Assembly (NCBI RefSeq): GCF_000024985.1
Contig: NC_013524.1
Coordinates: forward strand, 620,001-684,000
Length of the DNA stretch: 64,000 nt
Source of the DNA: Sphaerobacter thermophilus DSM 20745
GTDB lineage: Bacteria; Chloroflexota; Chloroflexia; Thermomicrobiales; Thermomicrobiaceae
Reading direction: 5' to 3'
Shown: piece by piece, positions 40,337 through 53,429 of the stretch
How the letters are laid out: every line of letters starts with the position of its first letter
Position numbering within the stretch: position 1 is the stretch's first letter
Notes under the pieces: model-generated
Seen by the model: only the letters and a program-made list of their open reading frames with translations
Told to the model about the DNA's origin: nothing
The model's database searches: none
Position numbers and translations under genes: made by a program

Positions 40337-42862
40337 CTACCGTTGGATGCGCTCGTAGATCAACTCCTGGGTACGGGCGGCGACCTCCTCAGGGTCGACC
40401 GGGATGCGGGCCACACCGGTCTCGACAGCGGCGCGGGCCACGGCCGCGGCGACAGCGGCGGGCACGTGCAGGTCCAGCGCACCAGGGATGACGAAGTCGC
40501 GACTCAACTCCTTGGGCGAGACCAGGTCCGCGATGGCGCGGGCGGCCGCCAGCTTCATCGCGTCGTTGATGTCGGTCGCGCGGGCGTCGAGCGCGCCGCG
40601 GAAGACACCGGGGAAGGCCAGCGAGTTGTTGACCTGGTTCGGGTAGTCGGAGCGCCCGGTCGCCACCACGAACGCCCCGGCCTCCTTGGCCTCGTCCGGC
40701 AGGATCTCCGGCTCCGGGTTGGCCAGGGCGAAGATGATCGGGTCCGGTGCCATGCTGCGGATCATCTCCTGCGTCAGCGCTCCGGCGACGGAGACGCCGA
40801 TGAAGACGTCCGCCCCGACGAGCGCTTCGGTGAGCGTGCCGGTGATCTGCTCCTTGTTGGTCAGGCGGGCCAGTTCCTCCTTGACCCGGTTCAGATCCTG
40901 CCGCCCGCGATGGACGATGCCCCGCCGGTCGCAGAGGATGATGTCACCCACGCCGACGGTCAGCAGGAGGCGCGCGACCGCGACGCCCGCCGACCCGGCA
41001 CCGTTGATGACGATCTTGACCTCTTCGAGCGGGGTACCACGCAGCGTGCAGGCATTGAGCAGCGCCGCCAGCACGATGATCGCCGTGCCGTGCTGGTCGT
41101 CGTGGAAGACCGGCAGATCGAGCCGCTCCTTGAGAGCCGCCTCGATCTCGAAGCAGCGCGGCGCGGAGATGTCCTCCAGGTTGATCCCGCCGAACGACGG
41201 CGCGATGGCGGTGACGATGTCGACGATGGCCTGCGGATCGCGCTCGGCCACGCAGATCGGGAAAGCCTCGACACCCGCCAGCGACTGGAACAGGACCGCC
41301 TTGCCCTCCATGACCGGGAGCGCGGCCTGCGGGCCGATGTCGCCCAAGCCCAGTACGGCGCTGCCGTCGGTCACGATCGCGACCAGGTTCTCCTTGACCG
41401 TCAGGTCGTAGACGACGCCGGGGTTGTCCTGCACCTCGGCGACCGGCGCCAGCGCGGCCGGGGGGACATACAGGAGCTTGAGGATGTGGTGATCCTTGAT
41501 CGGGATCTTGCTCCGGATCTCCAGCACGCCGTTGTACCGCCGTCGTAGGTCGATCGCCTGCTCGCGGAGGGTACGCGGGCGCGGGGCCGAAGAAGGGGCC
41601 GCGGGCCGGGTCCGGGCGGTGGGCATGCCTTCGTAGACGTAGCGCAAGGTATTCTCAGCTACCTCTTCCGGCTCGACATCGTGGACGGCCTCGCCGGTCT
41701 CCTTCGCCGCACGCACCACAGCGGCAGCCAGCGTCGGCGCCACGCGGAAGTCAAAGATGCGGGGCACGATGTTGTCGGCGTGCAACTCATCGTCAGGCAC
41801 GAGCCCGGCCAGCGCCTCGGCGGCATAGACCAGCGTCCGCAGCCGGATGTTGCGGGCGCCCGAGTCGAGCAACCCCCGGAACACGCCCGGGAAGACGAGC
41901 GAGATGTCCATCATGTTGGGGTGGTCGGAGCGACCGGTGCCGACCACGGCGGCCCCGGCGGCCTTGGCCTCCTGGGGCGAGATCTCCGGCGTCGGCAGCG
42001 CCATCGCGAAGACGATCGGGTCTCGCGCCATCTCGGCGATCATCTCCGGGGTGACGGCATCGCCGGTGGAGACCCCAATGAAGACATCGGCGCCACGCAG
42101 CATCTCGGCCAGGCTGCCGCGCCGGTGCTCCGGGTTCGACTCCTTGGCGACGTAGGCCTTGGCCCAGTTCATCCGGTAGGGCCGGTAGGGGTAGATGGCC
42201 CCCGCCCGGTCGCACACGACGAGGTCGCGCACGCCGACGCGGTGGAGCAGGCGGGCGATGCCGATGCCGGCCACGCCCGCCCCGCCGATGACCACCCGAA
42301 TCTCATTCAGTTGCTTGCCAACCACCTTGAGCGCGTTCATCAGCGCCCCGAGCACGAGGATGGCGCTGCCGTGGTGCTGGTTGCTGAAGACCGGGATGTT
42401 GCTGCCCTTCTCCAGGTGGTCGGCGATGGTGAAGCTGTGCGGCGCGCTGATGTGGTCCAGGCAGATCGCGCCGAAGGTGGGCGTGAGGGCCAGGATGGTC
42501 TCGACGACTGACAACGGGTCCCGCTGGTCGAGGCAGATCGGGAAGGCGTCGATCCCGGCGAAGGTCTTGAAGAGGACGCTCTTGGCTTCCAGCAGCGGCA
42601 GCGCGGCCTCGGGCAACCCGGCAGCCAGACCGAAGAGATCCGACCCGTCAGTGACGATGGCCACGGTGTTGCCGCGCGAGGTCAACTCGAAGGAGCTGAG
42701 GGGGTCCTCGCTGATGACACGGCACGCCTCGGCCACGCCAGGGGTGTACACCAGGCTCAATACCGCGCGGTCGCGAATAGGTACTTTACTGGAAACCCCG
42801 ATCAGTCCGCTGTGGCGGCGCCGATAGTTGAGCGCCTCGTCCTGTTGCTCAATGAGATACAC
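40337..42862 (-). CDS. Tandem-fused double malic enzyme, N-terminal copy degenerate
   Basis: 841 residues made of two malic-enzyme modules joined by a Pro/Ala linker (about 413-432). The second (about 433-841) keeps Tyr465, Lys521 in VMEGK, metal ligands Glu563-Asp564 in LEDISAP and Asp589 in FHDDQHGTA, NAD site NGAGSAGVAVARLL, ALANPEPEI (Asn715) and PNQVNNSL (Asn746). The first keeps Tyr39 (YTPGVAEAC) and Lys94, but the metal ligands become DH (136-137) and SNQHHG, and the malate asparagines become ALPTPEI and NMMDISL. So the C-terminal half probably converts malate to pyruvate plus CO2, while the N-terminal half is likely regulatory or structural. The second half departs from YTPGVAE (YVPPAALAP). 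The single start is GTG at 42862. Confidence 0.92.
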   Translation of the reverse strand: MYLIEQQDEALNYRRRHSGLIGVSSKVPIRDRAVLSLVYTPGVAEACRVISEDPLSSFELTSRGNTVAIVTDGSDLFGLAAGLPEAALPLLEAKSVLFKTFAGIDAFPICLDQRDPLSVVETILALTPTFGAICLDHISAPHSFTIADHLEKGSNIPVFSNQHHGSAILVLGALMNALKVVGKQLNEIRVVIGGAGVAGIGIARLLHRVGVRDLVVCDRAGAIYPYRPYRMNWAKAYVAKESNPEHRRGSLAEMLRGADVFIGVSTGDAVTPEMIAEMARDPIVFAMALPTPEISPQEAKAAGAAVVGTGRSDHPNMMDISLVFPGVFRGLLDSGARNIRLRTLVYAAEALAGLVPDDELHADNIVPRIFDFRVAPTLAAAVVRAAKETGEAVHDVEPEEVAENTLRYVYEGMPTARTRPAAPSSAPRPRTLREQAIDLRRRYNGVLEIRSKIPIKDHHILKLLYVPPAALAPVAEVQDNPGVVYDLTVKENLVAIVTDGSAVLGLGDIGPQAALPVMEGKAVLFQSLAGVEAFPICVAERDPQAIVDIVTAIAPSFGGINLEDISAPRCFEIEAALKERLDLPVFHDDQHGTAIIVLAALLNACTLRGTPLEEVKIVINGAGSAGVAVARLLLTVGVGDIILCDRRGIVHRGRQDLNRVKEELARLTNKEQITGTLTEALVGADVFIGVSVAGALTQEMIRSMAPDPIIFALANPEPEILPDEAKEAGAFVVATGRSDYPNQVNNSLAFPGVFRGALDARATDINDAMKLAAARAIADLVSPKELSRDFVIPGALDLHVPAAVAAAVARAAVETGVARIPVDPEEVAARTQELIYERIQR

Positions 42863-42948
42863 GTGACCTGCCCAACATCGCTACGCGGGGTGTCGCCCGG
42901 CCAATGAAACGCCCGGCAGATTTTACATGGCGGCCACAGCCTGCACAA

Positions 42949-44484
42949 TCAGGTTTCAGGCGCCGGATCGCACGTCGTCCAGGACTCGCGCAACACCCGC
43001 CGCAGTAACTTGCCACCCGCGTTACGCGGTAGCGGTTCGTGAGTAAATCGCATTCGCGACGGGATCTTATAGCCTGCCAGCCGCCCCCGACAGAAGGCGC
43101 GGAGGTCCTCGGCCGACAGTTCCGCTCCCGCTTCCAACCGTACCACGGCCGCCACGGTCTGGCCCCACTCGGGGTCGGGTAGGCCGAACACGCCCGCCTC
43201 CCGCACCGCGGGATGAGCCAACAGCACCGCCTCCACCTCGGACGGGTAGACGTTCTCCCCGCCGGTGACGATCAGGTCGTCGCGGCGATCGAGCACGTAG
43301 AGATAACCGTCTTCATCCAGGTAACCGGCATCGCCGGTGTGCAGCCAGCCGTCCACGATCGCCCGTGCCGTCGCCTCCGGCCGCCCATGGTAGCCGGCGG
43401 TCACGATCGGCCCGCGGACCAGGATCTCGCCGGCCTCGCCCGGCGCCGCCGGTCGCCCGTCCTTTTCGATGCGAACCTCGTTGGGGTAGAGCGGCTTGCC
43501 GGCCGAGCCGATCCGGCGAAGCGCGTCCTCTGGCGCCAGCGTCGCCACCTGCGACGCCGTCTCGGTCAGACCATAGGTCTGCATCACCGGAATGCCGCGC
43601 GCGGCGCACATCTCCAGCAGCGGCCGCGGGGCAGGCCCGCCGCCAAGCAGCAGGCAGCGCAGCCAGGGGGGATACGGCTTTTCGCCCCGTGCCGCGAGCA
43701 TGCGCCACACCATCGTCGCCACGACCGAGGCGATCGTCACCCGCTCCTCGTCGATGGCGCGGTTGACCGCCTCGGCGTCGAACGTCTCATGGAGGACGAC
43801 CGTCATGCCGTAGATCGCGCCACGGGTCAGGATCGACAGTCCGCCGACGTGGAACAGAGGCAGGCAGGCCAGCCAGCGGTCGTCGGCGTGCAGGCCCAGG
43901 TTGAGCGCTGAGCCGACGGCGCTCCACCAGAAGTTTCCGTAGGTGAGCAGCGCCCCCTTGGGCCGGCCGGTCGTGCCGGAGGTGTAGACGATGCTGTGGA
44001 TCTCCTCCGGAGCGTGTCGATCGACCAGCGCCACGTCCGCCTCCGGGACTGTCTCCAGCGCGACGGCCCCCGGCGGCGCGTCCGGCACCGCGCCGACCGT
44101 CGCGAGCCGCGGCACCGGCACCGCCGCCGCCACACCTGCGGTGTGCGTGTCGCACACCAACAGCCGGGCGCCGGAGTCGGCCACCTGCCAGGCGACCTCG
44201 CCGGCCGTGAGCCGAATGTTGATCGGCACCAGCACCGCGCCGAGGCGGCCCAGGGCGTGGACGATCTCCACGACGGCCGGCCCGTTCCGCAGCAGGGTCG
44301 CGACCCGGTCCCCGGCGCCGACGCCGAGCGCCGCCAGCCGCCGGGCCATAGCGTCCACCCGCGCGTCCAGTTCCGCGAATGTCCAGGACTCCCCACCGGC
44401 CATCAGCGCCACCCGCTCCGGCGTGCTCCGGGCGCGGGACGCGAGCCAGTCGGGGAGGGGGTGGGTGGGTAGGAGTTGGGTCAT
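42949..44484 (-). CDS. menE: o-Succinylbenzoate-CoA ligase
   Basis: AMP-forming ligase of 511 residues that activates o-succinylbenzoate for menaquinone synthesis. Motifs: [40 protein letters not shown] (typical of MenE), [39 protein letters not shown] and the catalytic lysine in [14 protein letters not shown]. It is the last gene of the minus-strand men cluster. A repeat patch and an S23-type gene separate it from menC, and its upstream region is itself repeat sequence, so its ribosome site is weak (GGAG 14 bases upstream). Confidence 0.93.
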
Positions 44485-44496
44485 AACGTAGTTCCG

Positions 44497-44556
44497 AGCT
44501 CCGTATTTCGTGTTCCGTGTTCCGTGTTTCGTGTTCCGTGTTTCGTGTTCCGTTAG
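44497..44556. repeat. GTGTTCCGTG-word repeat, left flank of S23 gene
   Basis: Six or more tandem variants of CGTGTTCCGTGTTTCGTG between the menE start and the end of the S23-type gene, overlapping the last codons of the latter. The complementary words lie on the other side of the gene at 45118-45172. Confidence 0.8.
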
Positions 44557-45020
44557 AGATCATCCGCGTCGTACGGGGCTCGGTCCTCGTGGACGGCTCG
44601 TCCACGCTGGGCTGGGATGATCACGAGCAAGGAGCGGATTATCTGGGACATCAAGTCGACTCGGTGATGGATCACGTCGTGGTCAAGGACATGCCTGGCC
44701 TTGTAATACCAGTCTCGACTCTCTCGAGCGGAGCCTAGCGAATACTCGTAAAACCGAACACGGTCCCTGTCGGATCCGCGGCTGTACCCTTCAGCGATGT
44801 TCGCGCTGATCGACCCCAGGGATCGGTAGAGTTGCGTCGACAAGGCGAGCGTACGGCGGTCGCGCGTCAGTGCTGTCACGTCGCTCCAGCCGATATCCGC
44901 CGCGTACAGGCTGAGCCGATAAACCTCCATCCGCCATAGCGGATCAGCCACAATCGCCCGCGGCACCGATCGTTGCCATTCCTCAAATGGTACCGTGCCC
45001 ACCTGCCTGCGATCGCCCAC
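44553..45020 (-). CDS. S23 / four-helix-bundle protein (23S rRNA intervening-sequence family)
   Basis: 155-residue helical protein with the family core SISANIAEGYSRGSDRDRVR and FYEYSLGSARESRDWYYKAR, as in proteins encoded by 23S rRNA intervening sequences and their chromosomal relatives. Function in the family is unknown. About 30 extra residues precede the usual start. GTG at 45020 follows GGAGGT. It lies inside the men cluster between menC and menE and is bracketed by inverted GTGTTCCGTG repeats, so it looks inserted rather than part of the pathway. Confidence 0.88.
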   Translation of the reverse strand: MGDRRQVGTVPFEEWQRSVPRAIVADPLWRMEVYRLSLYAADIGWSDVTALTRDRRTLALSTQLYRSLGSISANIAEGYSRGSDRDRVRFYEYSLGSARESRDWYYKARHVLDHDVIHHRVDLMSQIIRSLLVIIPAQRGRAVHEDRAPYDADDL

Positions 45021-45117
45021 CCGTCGTACCTCCGTGCGCTCTACGGTGTCATCATCCCCGTGTTGCCTCTATGGCATGGCTAAGGGGTGCCGTGAGGTAG
45101 CCCACGCTTCTTTCACT

Positions 45118-45172
45118 CGGATTATCCCGCGTTCCGCCACACGCAACACGGAACACGCAACACGGAACTCGA
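45118..45172. repeat. GTGTTCCGTG-word repeat, right flank of S23 gene (inverted)
   Basis: Contains CACGCAACACGGAACACGC words, complementary to the left flank at 44497-44556, and ends at the menC stop. Confidence 0.8.
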
Positions 45173-45173
45173 A

Positions 45174-46244
45174 TCACACCTCCACTCCCAATCCACCTCC
45201 GGCCGGGAGTGCCATCCTCCCCTGGTGAACCTCGAGCGGGCTGGCGAGAAGGTCGCTGGTGAGGAGGGAGCCGGTGGCCAGACCGCAGGCGGGGATGGGA
45301 TCGGGCAGAGTGGCGGCCACGTGCAGGGCGAGCGCGGTGCCGACCCCGGCGTCGATGGTGCTGGTCACGATCGCACGCAGCCCGGCATCGGTCGCCTCCT
45401 CGATGATGTCCCGCGCCGCTCGGGGACCGCCCGCCACCATCGGCTTGACCACGACAGCATCGACCGCGTCGGCCTGGAGCAGCGCCCGCACAGCATCGAG
45501 TGTGGTGGCCGACTCATCGGCCGCGATCGGTACATCGACCGCCCGTCGTACCCGCGCGAGCCCGGCCACGTCACCCGGCGGGACGGGCTGCTCCACCAGA
45601 TCCAGGTTGTAGGCGGCGAGTCGCCGCAGCAGGGCGATAGCCTCGTCGGGCGTCCAGGCGCCGTTGGCGTCAAGGCGTAGCGCGACGTCGGGGCCAACCG
45701 CCGAACGTACCGCCGCCACCCGCTCCACCTCGGCCGAGGGCGACCCGACGATACCGACCTTGAGCTTGACCGTGCGGAACCCGGCCTCGACGGCCTGCTT
45801 CGCGGCCGCGGCCGCGTCCTCCAGGCCGGGGACGCCGACGGTCGCGTTGACCGGCACCTCCGCCGCGTGGTTCGGCGCCAGCAGGGCCGCGAGGGGCACG
45901 CCCCGCGCGCGGCCGAGCACGTCGAGCGCGGCCGTCTCCAGCGCGCAGCGGACCGCGGCCACGCCGGGCCGATCGAGCGGCAGGGCAGCGCAGCGGTCGA
46001 GCAGTGCCTCCAGCGTTGCGCCGGTGAGCGCCGGTGTGAGGGCCTCCAGCAGGGCCGCCGCATCGGCAGCAGTGCCGCCACCGAACTCCGTCAGCGGCGC
46101 AGCCTCGCCCAGACCCTCGACCCCGGCATCCGTCGCCAGCCGGAGGATCAGGCCCTCGCGCGCTGTCGCACGGCCGTGCGCCGTGGCGAACCCGGCGGCG
46201 AAGGGGATGCGGTAGGGTGTGATCTCAAGCCGGGTGACCCTCAC
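45174..46244 (-). CDS. menC: o-Succinylbenzoate synthase
   Basis: Enolase-superfamily dehydratase of 356 residues in menaquinone synthesis. The catalytic lysine pair is in TVKLKVGIVG; metal ligands are Asp in LRLDANGAWTPDEA, Glu in LDLVEQPVPP and Asp in IAADESATT; the opposing lysine is in DAVVVKPMVAGG. The N-terminal capping domain starts VTRLEITPYRIPFAAGF. GTG at 46244 overlaps the menA stop as GTGA, so the two are translationally coupled; a longer open frame upstream is only the shadow of menA. Confidence 0.94.
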   Translation of the reverse strand: MRVTRLEITPYRIPFAAGFATAHGRATAREGLILRLATDAGVEGLGEAAPLTEFGGGTAADAAALLEALTPALTGATLEALLDRCAALPLDRPGVAAVRCALETAALDVLGRARGVPLAALLAPNHAAEVPVNATVGVPGLEDAAAAAKQAVEAGFRTVKLKVGIVGSPSAEVERVAAVRSAVGPDVALRLDANGAWTPDEAIALLRRLAAYNLDLVEQPVPPGDVAGLARVRRAVDVPIAADESATTLDAVRALLQADAVDAVVVKPMVAGGPRAARDIIEEATDAGLRAIVTSTIDAGVGTALALHVAATLPDPIPACGLATGSLLTSDLLASPLEVHQGRMALPAGGGLGVEV

Positions 46245-47146
46245 AGCAGCAGGCCCAGAGCAAGCAATGCGCCGAAGAGCAGGTGGAGCTGGCTCGTGCG
46301 CTTGAGTATCGGGTTCAGGGCGGTGCCGGTCGCGCCGCCGAGCGTGGTCCGGACCAGTGCAATACCCAACGGCAGCGAGAGCCACGACAGCAGCACCCAG
46401 GCGCTGGCGGCGCCGGTCAACCACAACAGCAGCGGGACGAGATAAGCGACAAAGGCGAAGAGGGCGTACTGGACCCGGCTCGCGCGGGCGCCGATCCGCA
46501 CCGCCAGGGTGCGCTTCCCGGCGGCACGGTCGGTGTCGATGTCCCGCAGGTTGTTGATGACCAGGATGTTCGTCACCAGCAGCCCGACCGGCACCGAGAC
46601 GGCGAGCGAGAGCGCGTCGACGGTGCCGGACTGGAGGTAGGCACTGCCGGTGACGGCGATCACGCCGAAGAAGATGAAGACGAAGAGGTCGCCCAGCCCG
46701 TGGTAGCCGAACGGCCAGGGGCCGCCGGTGTATGCCCACCCGCAGAGGATCGACAGCAGACCGATCACCAGGATCGGCCAGCCACCGACCATGACCAGGT
46801 AGAGGCCGACCAGGGCGGCAGCGCCGAAGGTCAGGATCGTCGCCCGCTTCATCTGCTCGGGCGTCACCAGCCCGCGCTGCGTGACCCGCACCGGGCCCAG
46901 CCGCTGAGCGGTGTCGGCGCCCCTGTGGAAGTCGGACAGGTCGTTGGCGTAATTGGTACCGATCTGGATCAGCACGGCGGCCACCAGCGCGGCCAGGAAC
47001 GGGAGCGGGCGGAAGGCGCCGGCGGCCACCCCGGCCGCAGTTCCGACCAGCACCGGCGCGATCGCGGCCGGCAGCGTCGGCAACCGCGCGGCCATCACCC
47101 ACACCTTGATCCGACTCGGCGGTGTCAGCGTCCCGCTCTGCTGCAT
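46241..47146 (-). CDS. menA: 1,4-Dihydroxy-2-naphthoate polyprenyltransferase
   Basis: UbiA-superfamily membrane enzyme attaching the isoprenoid tail to the naphthoquinol head group. The first aspartate-rich motif is in QIGTNYANDLSDFHRGADT (about 62-78) and the second in INNLRDIDTDRAAGKRTLAV (about 195-215). Around nine hydrophobic segments span 301 residues. It begins with MQQSGTLTPPSRIKVWVMAARLPT in a standard arrangement. Downstream menC overlaps it by 4 bp; upstream menB is 170 bp away, with a degenerate CCCTC/GAGGG repeat in the gap. Confidence 0.95.
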   Translation of the reverse strand: MQQSGTLTPPSRIKVWVMAARLPTLPAAIAPVLVGTAAGVAAGAFRPLPFLAALVAAVLIQIGTNYANDLSDFHRGADTAQRLGPVRVTQRGLVTPEQMKRATILTFGAAALVGLYLVMVGGWPILVIGLLSILCGWAYTGGPWPFGYHGLGDLFVFIFFGVIAVTGSAYLQSGTVDALSLAVSVPVGLLVTNILVINNLRDIDTDRAAGKRTLAVRIGARASRVQYALFAFVAYLVPLLLWLTGAASAWVLLSWLSLPLGIALVRTTLGGATGTALNPILKRTSQLHLLFGALLALGLLL

Positions 47147-47194
47147 CTGTGATCGGCCCTCACTCCTCAGCCCTCATTGCTCCCAGGGGCAGTC

Positions 47195-47254
47195 TCCCCT
47201 CCCCCCTTCCCTCCTCTCGGACGGAGCCCACGAGGGGAGAGGGGGAGAAGACAG
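47195..47254. repeat. Degenerate CCCCTCC/GGAGAGGGGG repeat in menB-menA gap
   Basis: Imperfect inverted CCCCTCCCC and GAGGGGAGAGGGGGAG arms around CGGACGGAGCCCACGA. The same inner words (CGGACAGAGCCCACCA) occur at 48.2 kb, so these form a sub-variant of the family. Confidence 0.65.
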
Positions 47255-47316
47255 GCCGGGCAAGGCTCCATGCGATGCCCGCGTGCCCGATCGCGCCGCC
47301 CTCACCCGCGTCAATC

Positions 47317-48144
47317 CTACGGAAAGCGTGGGAACTTGGAGAAGTCGGGCTTGCGCTTCTCGATGAAGGCGTCGCGTCCCTCCTTGGCCTCATCGGTCAG
47401 GTAGTAGAGCAGCGTCGCGTCGCCCGCGAGCTGCTGCAGTCCCGCCAGGCCGTCGGTGTCGGCGTTGAACGCCGCTTTGAGGAAGCGGATCGCCGTCGGG
47501 CTCTTCTCCAGGATCTCGCGCGCCCACTGCACCGCCTCCTCCTCCAGCCGCTCCAGCGGGACGACGGTGTTCACCAGGCCCATCTCGAGCGCTTCCTGGG
47601 CGGTGTACTGACGGCAGAGGTACCAGATCTCGCGCGCCTTCTTGTGCCCGACGACCCGGGCGAGATAGGTCGCACCATACCCGGCGTCGAAGCTGCCGAC
47701 CTTGGGGCCGGTCTGGCCGAAGATTGCGTTGTCCGCGGCGATGGTCAGGTCGCAGAGCAGGTGGAGCACGTGGCCGCCGCCGATCGCATAGCCGGCCACG
47801 ACCGCGATCACCGGCTTGGGCAGGAGCCGGATCTGCCGCTGGACATCGAGGATGTTGAGCCGCGGAATCCCCTGGTCATCGACGTAGCCACCATCGCCCC
47901 GGACCTTCTGATCACCGCCGGAGCAGAACGCCTTGTCCCCCTCGCCGGTCAGGAGCACCACCCCGATCGTCGGGTCCTCCCGCGCGTGGTGGAACGCATC
48001 GGACATCTCGAACACCGTCAGCGGCCGGAACGCGTTGCGGACCTCCGGCCGGTTGATGGTGATCTTGGCGATCCCCTCCCCCTCGGCCCGCTCGTAACGG
48101 ATATCGGTGTACTGCTTGATCGGTACCCAGGTGACTCCGCTCAT
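47317..48144 (-). CDS. menB: 1,4-Dihydroxy-2-naphthoyl-CoA synthase
   Basis: Crotonase-fold ring-closing enzyme of 275 residues. Characteristic segments: [85 protein letters not shown] and the C-terminal [20 protein letters not shown]. The QTGPKVG form is the one found in bicarbonate-dependent MenB enzymes. ATG at 48144 follows GGAGGAGG; an ATG eight codons upstream lies in repeat sequence. Distinct from the crotonase protein at 27.7 kb. Confidence 0.96.
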
Positions 48145-48155
48145 TGGACCTCCTC

Positions 48156-48300
48156 CCTCATGCGTCATGCGTCATACGTCATCCGTCCCCTCACCCCGGC
48201 TCCCTCTCGGACAGAGCCCACCAGGAGAGAGGAGAGCACGTCGTCACGATGTTCCCCCTCTCCCAACGTTGGGAGAGAGGGTCAGGGGGTGAGGGCCGCT
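48156..48300. repeat. CGTCAT-word and CCCTCTCCC palindromic repeats between GNAT gene and menB
   Basis: 48157-48186 is a CGTCATGCGTCATACGTCAT run. 48188-48230 and 48254-48298 are two members of the CCCTCTCCCAACGTTGGG family facing each other, closed by CCCTCACCCC and its complement. The 164-bp gap holds nothing else. Confidence 0.8.
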
Positions 48301-48308
48301 CTCGCGGC

Positions 48309-48890
48309 TCACTTCCCCCGCTCCCACTCGTCAGCCAGGAGGGCATAGATCAACGTGTCGCGCAGCGCGCCGGACGGCGTAATGGCCTCGCTGCGCAGGC
48401 GGGCCTCCAGCCGGTACCCGGCGCGCTCGGCAACCCGGGCGCTGCGGGCATTGTTCGCGTCGCAGCGGATCTCGACTCGCCGCGCGCCGAGGGTTTCGAA
48501 GGCGAAGCGGGTGATGCCGCGCACCGCTTCGGTTACGTACCCCTGCCCCTCGTACCGGGTCCGCACCCAGTAGCCGATCTCCATCTTGGGCACCCGCCAG
48601 TCGATGCGGTGCAGGCCGCTGCTGCCCACGAAGGCGCCGGTCGTCTTCTCGTACAGATGCAACCGGAGCTCAGTGCGGGTCAGGAAGTCGGCCCGCGCCT
48701 GGCGGATGTTCGCTTCAGTGTCGTCCACGCTCGGCACCGGGTGGACCCACTCCATCCAGGGACGCAGCCGGTCGAGCGACTCCAGGATCGCGGCGTTCAC
48801 CTCCGCGCCGTCGCCCGGCAACGGCGCCCGGATCAGCAGCCGCTCCGTCTCGAACTGCTCCGGAAAATCGCGCAGGATGGGTGGGATCAT
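48309..48890 (-). CDS. GNAT N-acetyltransferase (RimJ/RimL type)
   Basis: Acetyl-CoA-dependent acetyltransferase of 193 residues. It opens FETERLLIRAPLPGDGAEVN, has the beta4 segment MEIGYWVRTRYEGQGYVTEA with the acetyl-CoA pyrophosphate loop (RYEGQGY), and RRVEIRCDANNARSARVAER followed by GYRLEARLR, which are hallmarks of the RimJ/RimL group. ATG at 48890 is preferred; the frame is open 62 codons further but overlaps the DUF2283 gene. It has no evident role in menaquinone synthesis despite its place inside the men cluster. Confidence 0.93.
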   Translation of the reverse strand: MIPPILRDFPEQFETERLLIRAPLPGDGAEVNAAILESLDRLRPWMEWVHPVPSVDDTEANIRQARADFLTRTELRLHLYEKTTGAFVGSSGLHRIDWRVPKMEIGYWVRTRYEGQGYVTEAVRGITRFAFETLGARRVEIRCDANNARSARVAERAGYRLEARLRSEAITPSGALRDTLIYALLADEWERGK

Positions 48891-48948
48891 GAGATGCCTT
48901 CGCTTCCATCCACGGTAGGTTCGACCCGGACCAAACGCCTCCCCCGGC

Positions 48949-49167
48949 TCATCGCTCCAGGGAGAGACTCGCCAGCGGCAACTCCACCGCCTCGAGGCGC
49001 GACAGATCAGCGACCTGGCTGGCATGGTCGATATCGATGCCAACGAGCCGGCCCTCCGCGTCGAAGTCCAGCACAACGCCGGGCGCGACCTCGCGCGACT
49101 CTGCGCTGGGCCGCTCGGCCAGATCGATGTAGAGCGAGTCGGTCTCGGGGTAGTAATGGAACTTCAC
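48949..49167 (-). CDS. DUF2283 family small protein, probable antitoxin partner
   Basis: 72-residue beta-rich protein with the DUF2283 pattern FHYYPETDSLYIDLAERPSA, then REVAPGVVLDFDAEGRLVGI and EIDHAS-like IDIDHASQVADL. GTG at 49167 follows AAGGAGG and overlaps the stop of the upstream small reading frame as GTGA. In many genomes DUF2283 genes are the second gene of small toxin-antitoxin-like pairs; here the first gene carries a stop codon. Confidence 0.88.
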   Translation of the reverse strand: MKFHYYPETDSLYIDLAERPSAESREVAPGVVLDFDAEGRLVGIDIDHASQVADLSRLEAVELPLASLSLER

Positions 49168-49403
49168 GGCTGGACCTCCTTGAAACCGCGATCGGGGAAG
49201 GCATTGTGCACGGTCTCGCCGTCCTCGAGCGTCACCACACGCAGATACTTCTAGAGCTCGGGCACCCAGATCCAATATCGAACTCGTCCGTCACCCTGCA
49301 CCTCGCGGTGCGCCGGATTGCGCAGCGCCTCCTCACACCACTCACGCCGGATATAGGGCCGCTTCCGCAAGACCTGCTCTTCAAAATACCGCGTCGTCTT
49401 CAC
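49164..49403 (-). pseudogene. Small toxin-like gene interrupted by an in-frame TAG
   Basis: An 80-codon frame begins GTG at 49403, overlapping the menH stop as GTGA, and reads MKTTRYFEEQVLRKRPYIRR onward. Codon 51 is TAG (49253-49251). After it the same frame continues KYLRVVTLEDGETVHNAF and PDRGFKEVQP to a TGA that overlaps the DUF2283 start. The continuity of sense on both sides shows one ancestral gene; both halves resemble the small basic proteins usually paired with DUF2283. Most simply it is a disabled toxin; readthrough or a sequencing error are alternatives. Confidence 0.75.
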
Positions 49404-50233
49404 GTCCGAGCCGGTCGCTCCCTCTTCTCCACCAGGAACCCCAGCACCGCCTCGACAAACGCCTCAGGCTGCTCCAGGTGCGGGGCATGCCCGGCGTCGG
49501 GGATGATCCTGACCGTCGCCTGCGGCATGGCGCCCGCCATGGCGCGACTGATCTCCACGTATTTTCCGTCAAGCTCCCCGGCGATGAGCAACACCGGCAC
49601 AGCGATCTCACCCAGGCGGTCGTGCACCGGCGCCATGGCCCCGGCGCCCATGCCGCGCAGGCTATTGGCGAGGCCGCGTGGGGTGTGGCTGAGACGCTGC
49701 GCTCGCAGGCGCGCCCGCGTCGCCTCCGGCAGCCGCTGCTGGCTGGCGAAGAGGGGCAATCGCTCCCAGGCATCGACGAAGGCTTGCAGCCCCTCACGCT
49801 CGATCCGGTCGGCCAGGGCCGCATCGCTTGCCACGCGGGCCGCGCGCTCATCCGGGTCGGCGATGCCCGGCGACGCACCCTCCAGCACCAGCGCGCTCAC
49901 CCGCTCGGGCGCGGCCAGCGCCAGGTGCAGCGCCGTCCGCCCACCCATCGAATAGCCGAGCACGGCAGCGCGGTCGATGTCGAGCGCGTCGAGCAGCGCG
50001 ACGAGATCCGCCACGCAGCGATCCATGGCGTACCGGGCCGGGTCGGCGGGCACGTCGGAACGGCCGTGCCCGATCAGGTCGGGCGCGACCGTGTGGAAGT
50101 GCGCCTGCAAGGCGGGCAGCAGCGGCTCCCACGTGGCCGCGCTGCCGGTGAAGCCGTGGAGCAGTAGCAGCGGGGGACCGTCGCCCCCGCGCTCGACGTG
50201 GAGACGGACGCCGTTGACCGCGATCAGGCCCAC
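49400..50233 (-). CDS. menH: Alpha/beta-hydrolase, SHCHC synthase of the menaquinone pathway
   Basis: Probably eliminates pyruvate from the MenD product to give SHCHC. Alpha/beta-hydrolase fold of 277 residues: LLLLHGFTGSAATWEPL (oxyanion region), nucleophile elbow GYSMGGRTAL (Ser at about 95), acid Asp in LIAGELDGKYVEI and His in DAGHAPHLEQPEAFVEAVL. Its start overlaps the menD end by 10 bp. The position between menD and menB-side genes supports MenH over other hydrolases of the fold. Confidence 0.9.
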   Translation of the reverse strand: MGLIAVNGVRLHVERGGDGPPLLLLHGFTGSAATWEPLLPALQAHFHTVAPDLIGHGRSDVPADPARYAMDRCVADLVALLDALDIDRAAVLGYSMGGRTALHLALAAPERVSALVLEGASPGIADPDERAARVASDAALADRIEREGLQAFVDAWERLPLFASQQRLPEATRARLRAQRLSHTPRGLANSLRGMGAGAMAPVHDRLGEIAVPVLLIAGELDGKYVEISRAMAGAMPQATVRIIPDAGHAPHLEQPEAFVEAVLGFLVEKRERPART

Positions 50234-52002
50234 GCCGGCACCTCACCCGCCAGCGCGGCCGACACCGCGCGCCACATCTCGCGGTGGAGCGCCACGTTCC
50301 GCTCCCGGTCGGTCGGCACCTCGACGATGCTCAGACCCGACGCCGCGACGCCTTGCGCAACGGCCTCCCGGAAGGCGTCCCAGGTCGCGATCCGGGTGTA
50401 CGCCGCACCGTAGAGGTCGGCCACGGGGCGGAAATCGAGGCCATGGGGCGTGCCGAAGAGCGCCTCGAAGTGCTCCGGATAGGCGGCCTGGGGCAGGAAG
50501 GAGAAGATCCCACCGCCGTCGTTGTTGAACAGGACGATGGTCGCGCTCAGGTCGTGCAGCTTCGCGGCCAGCAGGCCGTTCATGTCGTGGTAGAAGGAGA
50601 TGTCGCCGATCGCCAGCACCAGCGGTCCGTCGCTGGCGGCCGCGGCGCCGAGCGCGCTGGAGATCACGCCGTCGATGCCGTTGGCGCCCCGGTTTGCCAG
50701 GAAACGGATCGCCCGCTGGCTCCGAGGGAAGAAGGTATCGAGGTCCCGCACCGGCATGCTGTTCCCGGCGAACAGGGTGCTCCCCTCCGGCAGCAGCGCG
50801 GCAAGTTCGGCGAAGACCTTACCCTCGAACAATTCGTCCATTCCGGCCAGCCGCTGCGCGATCGCGCCGCGAGCGGCGCGGTCGGCCTGCTGCCAGGTGG
50901 TGAGCCAGGTGGGTCGGCCCTCACCCCCCGACCCCCTCTCCCAATGCTGGGAGAGGGGGAGATCCGTAAGCGCGGAGCAGAGGTGGGTGGGCGAGGCGTG
51001 GACGACCTCGGCAGCGAGGAGTGCGGGATCCTCCCAGCCGTCGCCACCGTCGACCACGATGTGCCGCGCGGCCGGGTGGCGCTGCAGGTAGAGCAGCACC
51101 GGCTTGGATGTCGGCATGGCGCCGAAGCGCAGCACCAGATCGGGCGCCAGGCGCTCGACGAGCGCCGGGTCGCGCAGGAACGCATCGTAGGCGTCGAGCA
51201 CGACATCGTCCACGTGCGGCCCACAGCGCACGTGCGATAGCGGGTCGGCCAACACCGGGAAGCCGAGCGCGCGAGCAAGCCCAACCACCGCCGGACCGAG
51301 GTCCGGGTCTGTCTGCGGCCCGCAGACGATCAATCCCCGCCGGGCGGCGGCCAGCTCCTTCGCCAGAGCCTGCACCGTCGCCGGGTCGGGCACGCGCGGG
51401 GCACGCGAGACCGTGATACCCGTCGCCACGCCCTCGGCGGGCGCATCCTCCTCCGGTGACAGCGGCATGAGCGGCTCGCGGAAGGGGAAGTTGAGGTGCA
51501 CCGGGCCGGCCGGGTCAGCGAGCGCGGTGGCGGCGGCGCGTGCGGCGAGCATACGGGCGTATCGCAGCATGCCGGGCGTCGCCTCCGGCGGGGCCGCATC
51601 AACGAACCACTTCACGTTGCTGCCGAAGAGATGAATCTGATCGATGGCCTGCGGCGCGCCGACATCGCGCAGCTCGTGCGGGCGGTCGGCCGTCAGCAAC
51701 AGCAGCGGCACCCGGGCATAGCGGGCCTCGACCACAGCGGGGAGGAAGTTCGCCGCCGCCGTTCCGGAAGAGCAAACGACCGCGACCGGCTCGCGCCGCG
51801 CCTTGGCCATGCCGAGCGCGAAGAAGGCGGCCGAGCGCTCGTCCAGGTGCAGCCAGAGGCGGATGTCCGGATGGCGCGCCAGCATCACCGCCAGCGGCGT
51901 GGAGCGGGAGCCGGGCGCGAAGACCACGTGGCGCACCCCCGCCCGGGCGAGCTCGTCCACGAAGGCACCGACGTAGGTGAACAAGACCTGCTCGTGCGTC
52001 AC
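50224..52002 (-). CDS. menD: SEPHCHC synthase, carrying an in-frame repeat insertion
   Basis: Thiamine-diphosphate enzyme joining isochorismate and 2-oxoglutarate. Start region: VDELARAGVRHVVFAPGSRS. The catalytic Glu lies in HLDERSAAFFALGMAKA, and the cofactor-binding motif is GDISFYHDMNGLLAA with NNDGGGIFSFLPQ. 592 residues is longer than the usual 550-580. At about residues 346-362 the protein reads LPLSQHWERGSGGEGR, which is a translated copy of the CCCTCTCCCAACGTTGGG palindromic repeat (50917-50964), placed between the middle and C-terminal domains. GTG at 52002 overlaps the menF stop. Confidence 0.94.
   Translation of the reverse strand: MTHEQVLFTYVGAFVDELARAGVRHVVFAPGSRSTPLAVMLARHPDIRLWLHLDERSAAFFALGMAKARREPVAVVCSSGTAAANFLPAVVEARYARVPLLLLTADRPHELRDVGAPQAIDQIHLFGSNVKWFVDAAPPEATPGMLRYARMLAARAAATALADPAGPVHLNFPFREPLMPLSPEEDAPAEGVATGITVSRAPRVPDPATVQALAKELAAARRGLIVCGPQTDPDLGPAVVGLARALGFPVLADPLSHVRCGPHVDDVVLDAYDAFLRDPALVERLAPDLVLRFGAMPTSKPVLLYLQRHPAARHIVVDGGDGWEDPALLAAEVVHASPTHLCSALTDLPLSQHWERGSGGEGRPTWLTTWQQADRAARGAIAQRLAGMDELFEGKVFAELAALLPEGSTLFAGNSMPVRDLDTFFPRSQRAIRFLANRGANGIDGVISSALGAAAASDGPLVLAIGDISFYHDMNGLLAAKLHDLSATIVLFNNDGGGIFSFLPQAAYPEHFEALFGTPHGLDFRPVADLYGAAYTRIATWDAFREAVAQGVAASGLSIVEVPTDRERNVALHREMWRAVSAALAGEVPAWA
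50917..50964. repeat. CCCTCTCCC palindromic repeat inside menD coding sequence
   Basis: CCCTCACCCCCCGACC leads into CCCTCTCCCAATGCTGGG and AGAGGGGGAG, a full member of the dispersed family. Reading frame is kept through the element. Confidence 0.88.
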
Positions 52003-53429
52003 TCGGTCTCTGCCCCCTCGATCCCCAGCGCCGCGAGCATCGGCCGCAGCTTCACCGACGACTCGGCATACTCCCGCTCCGGGTCGGAGTCGCCCATGAT
52101 GCCGCAGCCGGCGAACAGCGACGCCTCGGCCCCCTCGACCAGCGCCGAGCGCAGGGCCACGGCGAACTCACCCTGACCGGAAGCATCCATCCAGCCCACC
52201 GGCGCGGCGTACCAGCCGCGATCCAGTCCCTCGTGCTCCCGGATGTAGCGCAGCGCCTCCGCGCGGGGCGTCCCGCCCACCGCCGGGGTCGGGTGCAGGC
52301 GCGCGACCAGGTCCATCAGCGTCGCTCCGTCGCGCAGCCGTGCGGTGACCGGGGTGTAGAGGTGGTGCACGTTCCGGACGGAAAGGATCTCCGGCTCGTC
52401 CGGGGTCTCGACCTCGACGCACGGACCGTCGAGCGCCGTGCGGATCGCCCGGACGACGACCGCATGCTCGGCGCGGTCCTTGGCACTGGCGAGCAGCGCA
52501 GCGGCCAGCTCCCGGTCCTCCTCCGGGGTCGCCCCGCGCGGGATCGACCCGGCCAGGCTGGCGACACGGACTGTCCGGCCGTCCAGCCGCACCAGGCGCT
52601 CGGGCGTGGCGCCCAGGAAAACCCGCTCGCCCCGGGCCACGGCGAAGACGTAGCAGCTTGGATAGGCATCGCGCAGCCGCCGGAGCGCCGCCTCGACATC
52701 GAACGGCTCCTCAGCCTCGACCCGCACCTCCCGCGCGAGCACCACCTTCTCCAGATCGCCACGGCGAACCGCCGCTGCAGCCTGGGCGACGGCGGTGAGG
52801 AAACGGGGGACGGCCCTCACCCCCTGCCCCCCTCTCCCAACGTTGGGAGAGGGGGAATCCGGCGCCGACTGCGTGCTGGGCATTCCGTCGTGCTCAATGC
52901 TCCCCTCTCCCAAGGTTGGGAGAGGGGTCGGGGGTGAGGGGTGCCGATCCCCCACCACCACATTCACACGCCGCCAGCACTCGCCGCCCTGCAGAGTGAG
53001 CGTCTGGCGCGGGAGGATGAGGCGAGCGTCAGGGAAGCCGCACCAGCGGGGAGTGGATGGGCGCTCGGGATCGAAGGCGAAGCCGCCGATGACGGTCGGG
53101 CCGGGCCCGTCGCCAACGATCAGCGCCCCATCGAGGAGCGCGCGCCAGGCCGCGTCCGCCGCCGCGAAGCGCTCCGGACCGGTCGGCTCGATGACATGGG
53201 CGGCGCCGACCCCGACCAGGGCGAAGTCCGCGTCAGGTTGGAGCCAGAGGCAGCGGTCACTCGCCGTGGCCGCCTGAGCGAAGACATCGATCGGATCCTC
53301 CGCAGCGACCCGCTCGCTCCAGCTCACCAGGACCGGCGCGCCGCGCTCGGCGGCCAACCGGCGGGCCCGCGCCAGGAGCGGCGCCAGCACCTGCTCCGTG
53401 TCGATCCGCTCTGTCACATCGAGGGCCAC
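51999..53429 (-). CDS. menF: Isochorismate synthase, carrying a double in-frame repeat insertion
   Basis: Chorismate-binding enzyme feeding menaquinone synthesis, 476 residues. The catalytic C-terminal domain has GDLEKVVLAREVRVEAEEPF, FLGATPERLVRLDGRTVRV, SLAGSIPRGATPEEDRELA, HLYTPVTARL, HPTPAVGGTPRAEAL and GYFMDASGQGEF-like GWMDASGQGEFAVALRSA. Between the N-terminal and catalytic domains (about residues 163-205) a stretch including PTPLPTLGEGS and DSPSPNVGRGGQGVRA corresponds to two copies of the CCCTCTCCCAACGTTGGG repeat. The start overlaps the tetR-family gene by 16 bp. Confidence 0.93.
   Translation of the reverse strand: MALDVTERIDTEQVLAPLLARARRLAAERGAPVLVSWSERVAAEDPIDVFAQAATASDRCLWLQPDADFALVGVGAAHVIEPTGPERFAAADAAWRALLDGALIVGDGPGPTVIGGFAFDPERPSTPRWCGFPDARLILPRQTLTLQGGECWRRVNVVVGDRHPSPPTPLPTLGEGSIEHDGMPSTQSAPDSPSPNVGRGGQGVRAVPRFLTAVAQAAAAVRRGDLEKVVLAREVRVEAEEPFDVEAALRRLRDAYPSCYVFAVARGERVFLGATPERLVRLDGRTVRVASLAGSIPRGATPEEDRELAAALLASAKDRAEHAVVVRAIRTALDGPCVEVETPDEPEILSVRNVHHLYTPVTARLRDGATLMDLVARLHPTPAVGGTPRAEALRYIREHEGLDRGWYAAPVGWMDASGQGEFAVALRSALVEGAEASLFAGCGIMGDSDPEREYAESSVKLRPMLAALGIEGAETE
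52812..52942. repeat. Two CCCTCTCCC palindromic repeats inside menF coding sequence
   Basis: Two palindromes (cores CCCTCTCCCAACGTTGGG and CCCTCTCCCAAGGTTGGG) face each other about 45 bp apart, with CCCTCACCCCC and GGGGGTGAGGGG at the outer ends, the same paired design as at 36.7 and 48.2 kb, but here entirely within an open reading frame. Confidence 0.9.

Follow-up and report, generated by a model that had tools for sequence, protein, structure and literature searches.

Why should one polypeptide carry two malic-enzyme modules, one of which has lost residues for binding metal and malate? This question is raised by a gene of Sphaerobacter thermophilus in the window, i.e., the whole stretch of 64,000 nucleotides of DNA that was analyzed. 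The coding sequence (40337..42862, minus strand, GTG start), defined by open-frame reading and Pfam, specifies 841 amino acids in a single uninterrupted frame that runs from 42862 to 40337 and is stop-free inside. In line with the original prediction of a fused double malic enzyme, the Pfam domains malic and Malic_M match two stretches each, over the gathering score (125.7 and 170.2 bits). Sequence matches and a predicted model also delimit the modules, and the protein is composed of (i) an N-terminal malic-enzyme module (residues 1 to 413; 41624..42862), (ii) a linker that was taken from the predicted model (residues 414 to 429; 41576..41623), with low model confidence at residues 419 to 425, and (iii) a C-terminal malic-enzyme module (residues 430 to 841; 40340..41575), all on the minus strand. 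With 841 residues and two modules, it departs from the small-homodimer format of one module of ~390 to 440 residues. The fusion partner is indeed a second malic enzyme and not a phosphotransacetylase: no Pfam match to a phosphotransacetylase-like C-terminal domain was found in the 841-residue protein, which also scored below the cut-off of the MaeB-like NCBIfam model PRK12861 (649.5 versus 1178). A model for double malic enzymes was not among the NCBIfam matches of the protein. In the S. thermophilus genome (3,993,764 bases, 2 contigs), we found no further malic enzyme and thus no second malic enzyme able to pair with the double one.

The sequence motifs quoted in the original prediction are all present. 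In the N-half, Tyr39 (codon at 42746..42748, minus strand), the equivalent of MaeB Tyr52, lies within YTPGVAE, and the lysine is Lys94. Here the metal-site Glu-Asp is replaced by Asp136-His137 (42452..42457) and FHDDQHG by FSNQHHG (residues 159 to 165; 42368..42388). The dinucleotide-binding region (residues 193 to 235; 42158..42286) opens with GGAGVAGIGIARLL at residues 193 to 206. Ala-Leu-Pro (residues 288 to 290; 41993..42001) stands in place of Ala-Asn-Pro, and NMMDI (residues 316 to 320; 41903..41917) in place of NQVNN, these features all being on the minus strand. The predicted loss of asparagines from this half holds for the Ala-Asn-Pro asparagine, which is Leu289, and for the last two of NQVNN, which are Asp319 and Ile320, but not for the first, which is kept as Asn316. 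With its metal and malate residues gone, the N-half is unable to form a complete active site, as had been proposed. Within LFKTFAGID of the same half, Lys99 and Asp105 (residues 99 to 105; 42548-42568, minus strand) are invariant, and their C-half counterparts are mostly Gln and always Glu, respectively; these residues perhaps make contacts between the halves.

The C-half, also read on the minus strand, shows the reverse picture. Its tyrosine segment (residues 460 to 480; 41423..41485) is degenerate, with YVPPAALAP at residues 465 to 473 and a one-residue insertion common to all C-halves, and LFQSLAGVEA is found at residues 524 to 533. The remaining site residues are those of an intact malic enzyme, namely, Lys521 (41300..41302), the equivalent of MaeB Lys107; LEDI at residues 562 to 565 (41168..41179); HDDQHG at residues 587 to 592 (41087..41104); a dinucleotide-binding region at residues 620 to 661 (40880..41005), in which Arg654 and Lys661 occupy the positions of Arg242 and Lys250 in MaeB; Ala-Asn-Pro at residues 714 to 716 (40715..40723); and NQVNN at residues 742 to 746 (40625..40639).

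The degenerate N-half and the drifted C-half form one coherent pattern, because the catalytic tyrosine of these enzymes comes from the partner protomer. Both the small malic enzymes and MaeB form intertwined dimers in which the active site spans two protomers; Tyr52 of MaeB comes from the other monomer and the other catalytic residues from the same chain, Lys107, Glu149, and Asp174 being named without a remark on the other monomer, and the phytoplasma enzyme is cited for the same principle of tyrosine donation (PMC7902834). By this rule, the N-half tyrosine of a fused pair would act in the pocket of the C-half, and the C-half tyrosine in that of the N-half. The original prediction that the active half has drifted is thus borne out as far as the degeneracy of the C-half tyrosine motif is concerned, but by the partner-tyrosine rule this motif would serve the dead N-half site.

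We consider it likely, from the conservation pattern and the predicted structures, that the protein is an asymmetric pseudo-dimer with complementary halves and one composite site per chain, to which the N-half lends Tyr39. An ancestral small malic-enzyme gene was duplicated and fused once, so that an intertwined homodimer with two equal sites, each receiving its catalytic tyrosine from the other protomer, would have become a two-module pseudo-dimer. After the fusion, one site would have been retained and the other abandoned. The retained site would consist of N-half Tyr39 together with C-half Lys521, Glu563, Asp564, Asp588/589, Asn715, and Asn745/746 and the C-half NAD(P) pocket, with the pairing of Tyr39 and the C-half presumably taking place in cis. 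The abandoned site would comprise the C-half tyrosine segment and the N-half pocket, whose metal and malate residues are gone and whose dinucleotide motif is kept. Each chain of 841 residues probably has one working site, at which malate would undergo oxidative decarboxylation to pyruvate and CO2, and either half by itself is predicted to be inactive or nearly so. Arg654 and Lys661 suggest NADP as a possible cofactor. To our knowledge, site-directed tests of tyrosine donation concern homodimers only.

This reading was set against the conservation among 72 double enzymes, and the idea that the tyrosines cross over preceded the tabulation. Invariant in 72/72 doubles were Tyr39, Thr40, and Gly42 of the N-half and Lys521, Glu563, Asp564, Asp588, Asp589, Asn715, Asn745, and Asn746 of the C-half. 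At the mirror positions of the N-half, Lys was present in 56 of the 72 sequences, Glu in 25, Asp in 45, and the first and second Asp of HDD in 0 and 18, respectively; the malate asparagines were kept in 3, 7, and 1 of the 72. The C-half tyrosine is Tyr in 68/72 doubles and otherwise His or Cys, and its TPG motif is eroded throughout; given this frequency, the residue appears to be still under some constraint. Mapped on the tree, the N-half lysine changed 4 times and the C-half tyrosine 3 times, the N-half tyrosine and all C-half site residues never. Among 122 single enzymes, the whole catalytic set is kept almost without exception. Once Tyr39 is pooled with the C-half residues, the full set (Tyr, Lys, Glu-Asp-Asp, Asn, and Asn) is present and invariant in the doubles as well, and these pooled residues are predicted to meet in one physical site. 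Whether a residue has been retained thus depends on the physical site to which it belongs and not on the half that carries it.

The same pattern extends beyond single residues. The N-half is generally less conserved than the C-half, but the opposite applies to its segment 14 to 53 (42704..42823, minus strand), which contains the invariant Tyr39-Thr-Pro-Gly, is conserved above its C-half counterpart, and is predicted to supply what the active site of the C-half lacks. The mean entropy difference was -0.62 in this segment versus +0.23 elsewhere (Mann-Whitney p = 6e-9, a value that serves as a guide only, since the segment limits were set after viewing the conservation profile and neither the sequences nor neighboring columns are independent). 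No other stretch of that length had so large an excess of N-half conservation (1 of 409 positions). Stronger evidence than the p value comes from the repeated losses and from the fit to the published structural rule.

The original prediction had suggested a check for an intramolecular dimer, and predicted structures agree with such a dimer. Two doubles of distant lineages, the window protein and one of the HyVt-111 group, were modeled by AlphaFold2 with pLDDT values of 92.1 and 92.5, respectively, and a pTM of 0.91 each; both models dock the N-half on the C-half, with doubt at the linker and the chain ends. For two modules of ~410 residues, this pTM suggests a confident mutual placement, although AlphaFold2 may lean on homodimers from its training set. 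In structural alignments, of which the first and last aligned residues were available, small malic enzymes align to the C-half alone, whereas nearly all listed entries of large malic enzymes align, in both models, from N-half residue 21 to 25 to the end of the C-half; the exceptions in the list of the window protein were 1do8 and 9myf. Residues 97 to 561 of human ME2, for example, align to residues 25 to 840 of the model, and Tyr39 would by simple offset correspond approximately to Tyr112 of ME2. Because large enzymes, which supply their tyrosine in cis, align from N-half residue ~22 to 25 onward, the models are predicted to have the N-half tyrosine segment at the C-half active site, that is, where this site needs a tyrosine. 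Conservation pattern and alignment ranges agree in suggesting that the tyrosine segment may be donated by the partner module. No families other than malic enzymes were near in the structure comparison.

Of the alternative explanations, the one that survives best, though we hold it to be improbable, is that the N-half is chiefly a regulatory pseudoenzyme whose dead pocket binds NAD(P)(H) or a similar compound and tunes a C-half that alone is catalytic. It accords with the nucleotide signature of the N-half, in which G194, G196, G199, D218, R227, and K235 are each found in 72/72 doubles, and with a stretch (residues 214 to 234) for which conservation in the N-half exceeds that in the C-half. The signature is in fact stricter in the dead site, since C-half Lys661 is found in 67/72 sequences and the third Gly of the C-half in 47/64. 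R227 and K235 of the N-half, like R654 and K661 of the C-half, match Arg242 and Lys250 of MaeB, which are named for NADP specificity (PMC7902834); single enzymes have Arg in 58/122 and Lys in 61/122 cases at these two positions. This explanation, however, does not say why a catalytic motif, that of the tyrosine, should be strictly kept by the N-half when it has eroded in the C-half, and a C-half that catalyzed alone would need its own tyrosine motif. Of the sensor proposed originally, the nucleotide signature stands, but the invariance of Tyr39 indicates that the N-half is probably an obligate catalytic partner and not merely a pseudoenzyme sensor. Most likely, it has been retained because it completes the C-half active site.

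A nucleotide bound in the dead site, with a structural or regulatory role, is nevertheless plausible from the residues retained there. More tentatively, the abandoned site may, besides the lending of Tyr39, have become a dinucleotide-binding regulator that, much like the forskolin-type pocket in adenylyl cyclase, controls the single composite site from the other side of the pseudo-twofold axis. If so, a regulatory abandoned site would have arisen inside an ordinary enzyme of central metabolism that is found in several phyla.

Two further explanations are considerably less probable. In the first, which we regard as very doubtful, N-halves would pair with N-halves and C-halves with C-halves of different chains, giving an active C:C homodimer with a dead N:N appendage. 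Single modules are as a rule homodimeric (PMC7902834), but such pairing predicts a conserved C-half tyrosine and a drifting N-half tyrosine, which is the reverse of what was found, and both models dock the N-half on the C-half. Slightly less credible still is an N-half with a different, metal-free chemistry based on the retained lysine, tyrosine, and nucleotide pocket. The lysine is kept in most doubles, and Asn316 in 63/64; yet the lysine has been lost on about four branches in which the gene was retained, and the replacements of the metal ligands vary among lineages, which suggests decay and not a shared new function.

The weakest explanation, two tandem genes joined by an assembly or sequencing error, found no support, although adjacent unfused malic enzyme genes exist (see below), and has a negligible probability, since the genome consists of two contigs, the frame is stop-free, and the same frame was found in 43 genomes of the order as well as in other lineages; an artefact of this kind is ruled out. 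The search for other double-module proteins that had been suggested returned them across the order and in at least two groups labeled as other phyla. In the order sample of 61 genomes, which includes that of S. thermophilus itself, 43 contained the double as one uninterrupted frame, with relatives that were 64 to 97% identical, and some others contained parts of it at contig ends or broken frames. One copy from the same order (G026, L149:3696-6179) has frame breaks and is possibly decaying or affected by assembly errors. The double is also carried by (i) two genomes from another family of the same phylum; (ii) a metagenome-assembled genome (MAG) listed under Proteobacteria (HyVt-111), together with relatives, with strong matches in 33/297 genomes of the phylum sample; and (iii) a MAG listed under Nitrospirae (NS_11), in which the frame contains errors, and two relatives in which it is intact, the phylum labels of MAGs being record titles that may be imprecise.

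In a tree of both modules, as had likewise been suggested, built from 26 N-halves, 26 C-halves, and 38 single enzymes, each of the three sets formed one group. Branch support was 100/100 for the N-halves, 98/94 for the C-halves, and 99/98 for the separation of doubles from singles. Because of these groupings and the insertion common to the C-halves, all doubles stem from one duplication-fusion event. In another genome of the same phylum (G339, L223:360-3262), two malic enzyme genes lie side by side without being fused. This pair was considered as a fusion intermediate and rejected: unlike the fused pair, both copies have complete active-site motifs, and each has its own N-terminal extension, so that they probably belong to another lineage.

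In the window, the double malic enzyme gene is the last of a same-strand menaquinone run (40337-53429, minus strand) that contains MenF-, MenD-, MenH-, MenB-, MenA-, MenC-, and MenE-like genes; it starts 86 bases past MenE, and Pfam backs six of these neighbors. MenE is also near the double in two other genomes (G007 and G004), where the menaquinone genes are only partly shared, and it was found beside the double at none of the loci checked beyond the family. As no menaquinone linkage was seen beyond the family at these loci, a conserved gene neighborhood was dropped as a functional clue. Other observations in this region are a four-helix protein of the 23S rRNA-intervening-sequence type between MenC and MenE (44553-45020); immediately upstream of MenE, a short tandem repeat (translated NTEHETRNTEHE; ~44490-44605, minus strand); and a palindromic repeat (CCCTCACCC...CTCTCCC) at 52814-52940, 50918-50942, and also 48188-48295. 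The latter lies in frame inside the MenF and MenD coding sequences as well as between genes and has 9 matches in the window versus 0.26 expected.

Compared with known systems, each half has the fold of the small malic enzymes of phytoplasma AYWB (PDB 5CEE) and Thermotoga (TM0542, PDB 1VL6); the C-half matched 5CEE with a Z of 51.7, and the N-half matched by sequence. These enzymes have the same catalytic residues as the pooled halves and a partner-donated tyrosine, but the double has two modules in one chain, with one site kept and the other degenerate. MaeB (PMC7902834), whose malic enzyme domain is ~50% identical to the C-half, shows the tyrosine swap that is predicted for the double and, like the double, has a catalytically dead appended domain; in the double, by contrast, a second malic enzyme is appended, at the N terminus, and a catalytic residue probably comes from it. 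Large eukaryotic-type malic enzymes such as human ME2 have a complete active site in one chain, as is predicted for the double, but have the tyrosine in cis within one module of ~550 residues instead of two paired modules. The C1/C2 pair of mammalian adenylyl cyclase also consists of a duplicated module whose interface holds one catalytic site, the pseudosymmetric counterpart of which is degenerate; it is unrelated to the double, and its dead site is a known regulatory pocket. A literature search on tandem, pseudo-dimer, or two-domain malic enzymes, which covered few subscription journals, yielded nothing relevant.

A number of implications can be derived from these data. (i) In annotation, care is called for because a protein of ~840 residues can be a double malic enzyme instead of a MaeB hybrid and because one half of a double looks dead although it would be needed. 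(ii) The double may serve as a tool for separating chemistry, tyrosine exchange between subunits, and communication between sites in malic enzymes. (iii) The fusion took place once and is now present in several bacterial groups, and of two equivalent composite sites, exactly one would have been kept while the other decayed. The family would thus be a natural experiment on the question of why symmetric dimers that share active sites are so common among enzymes.
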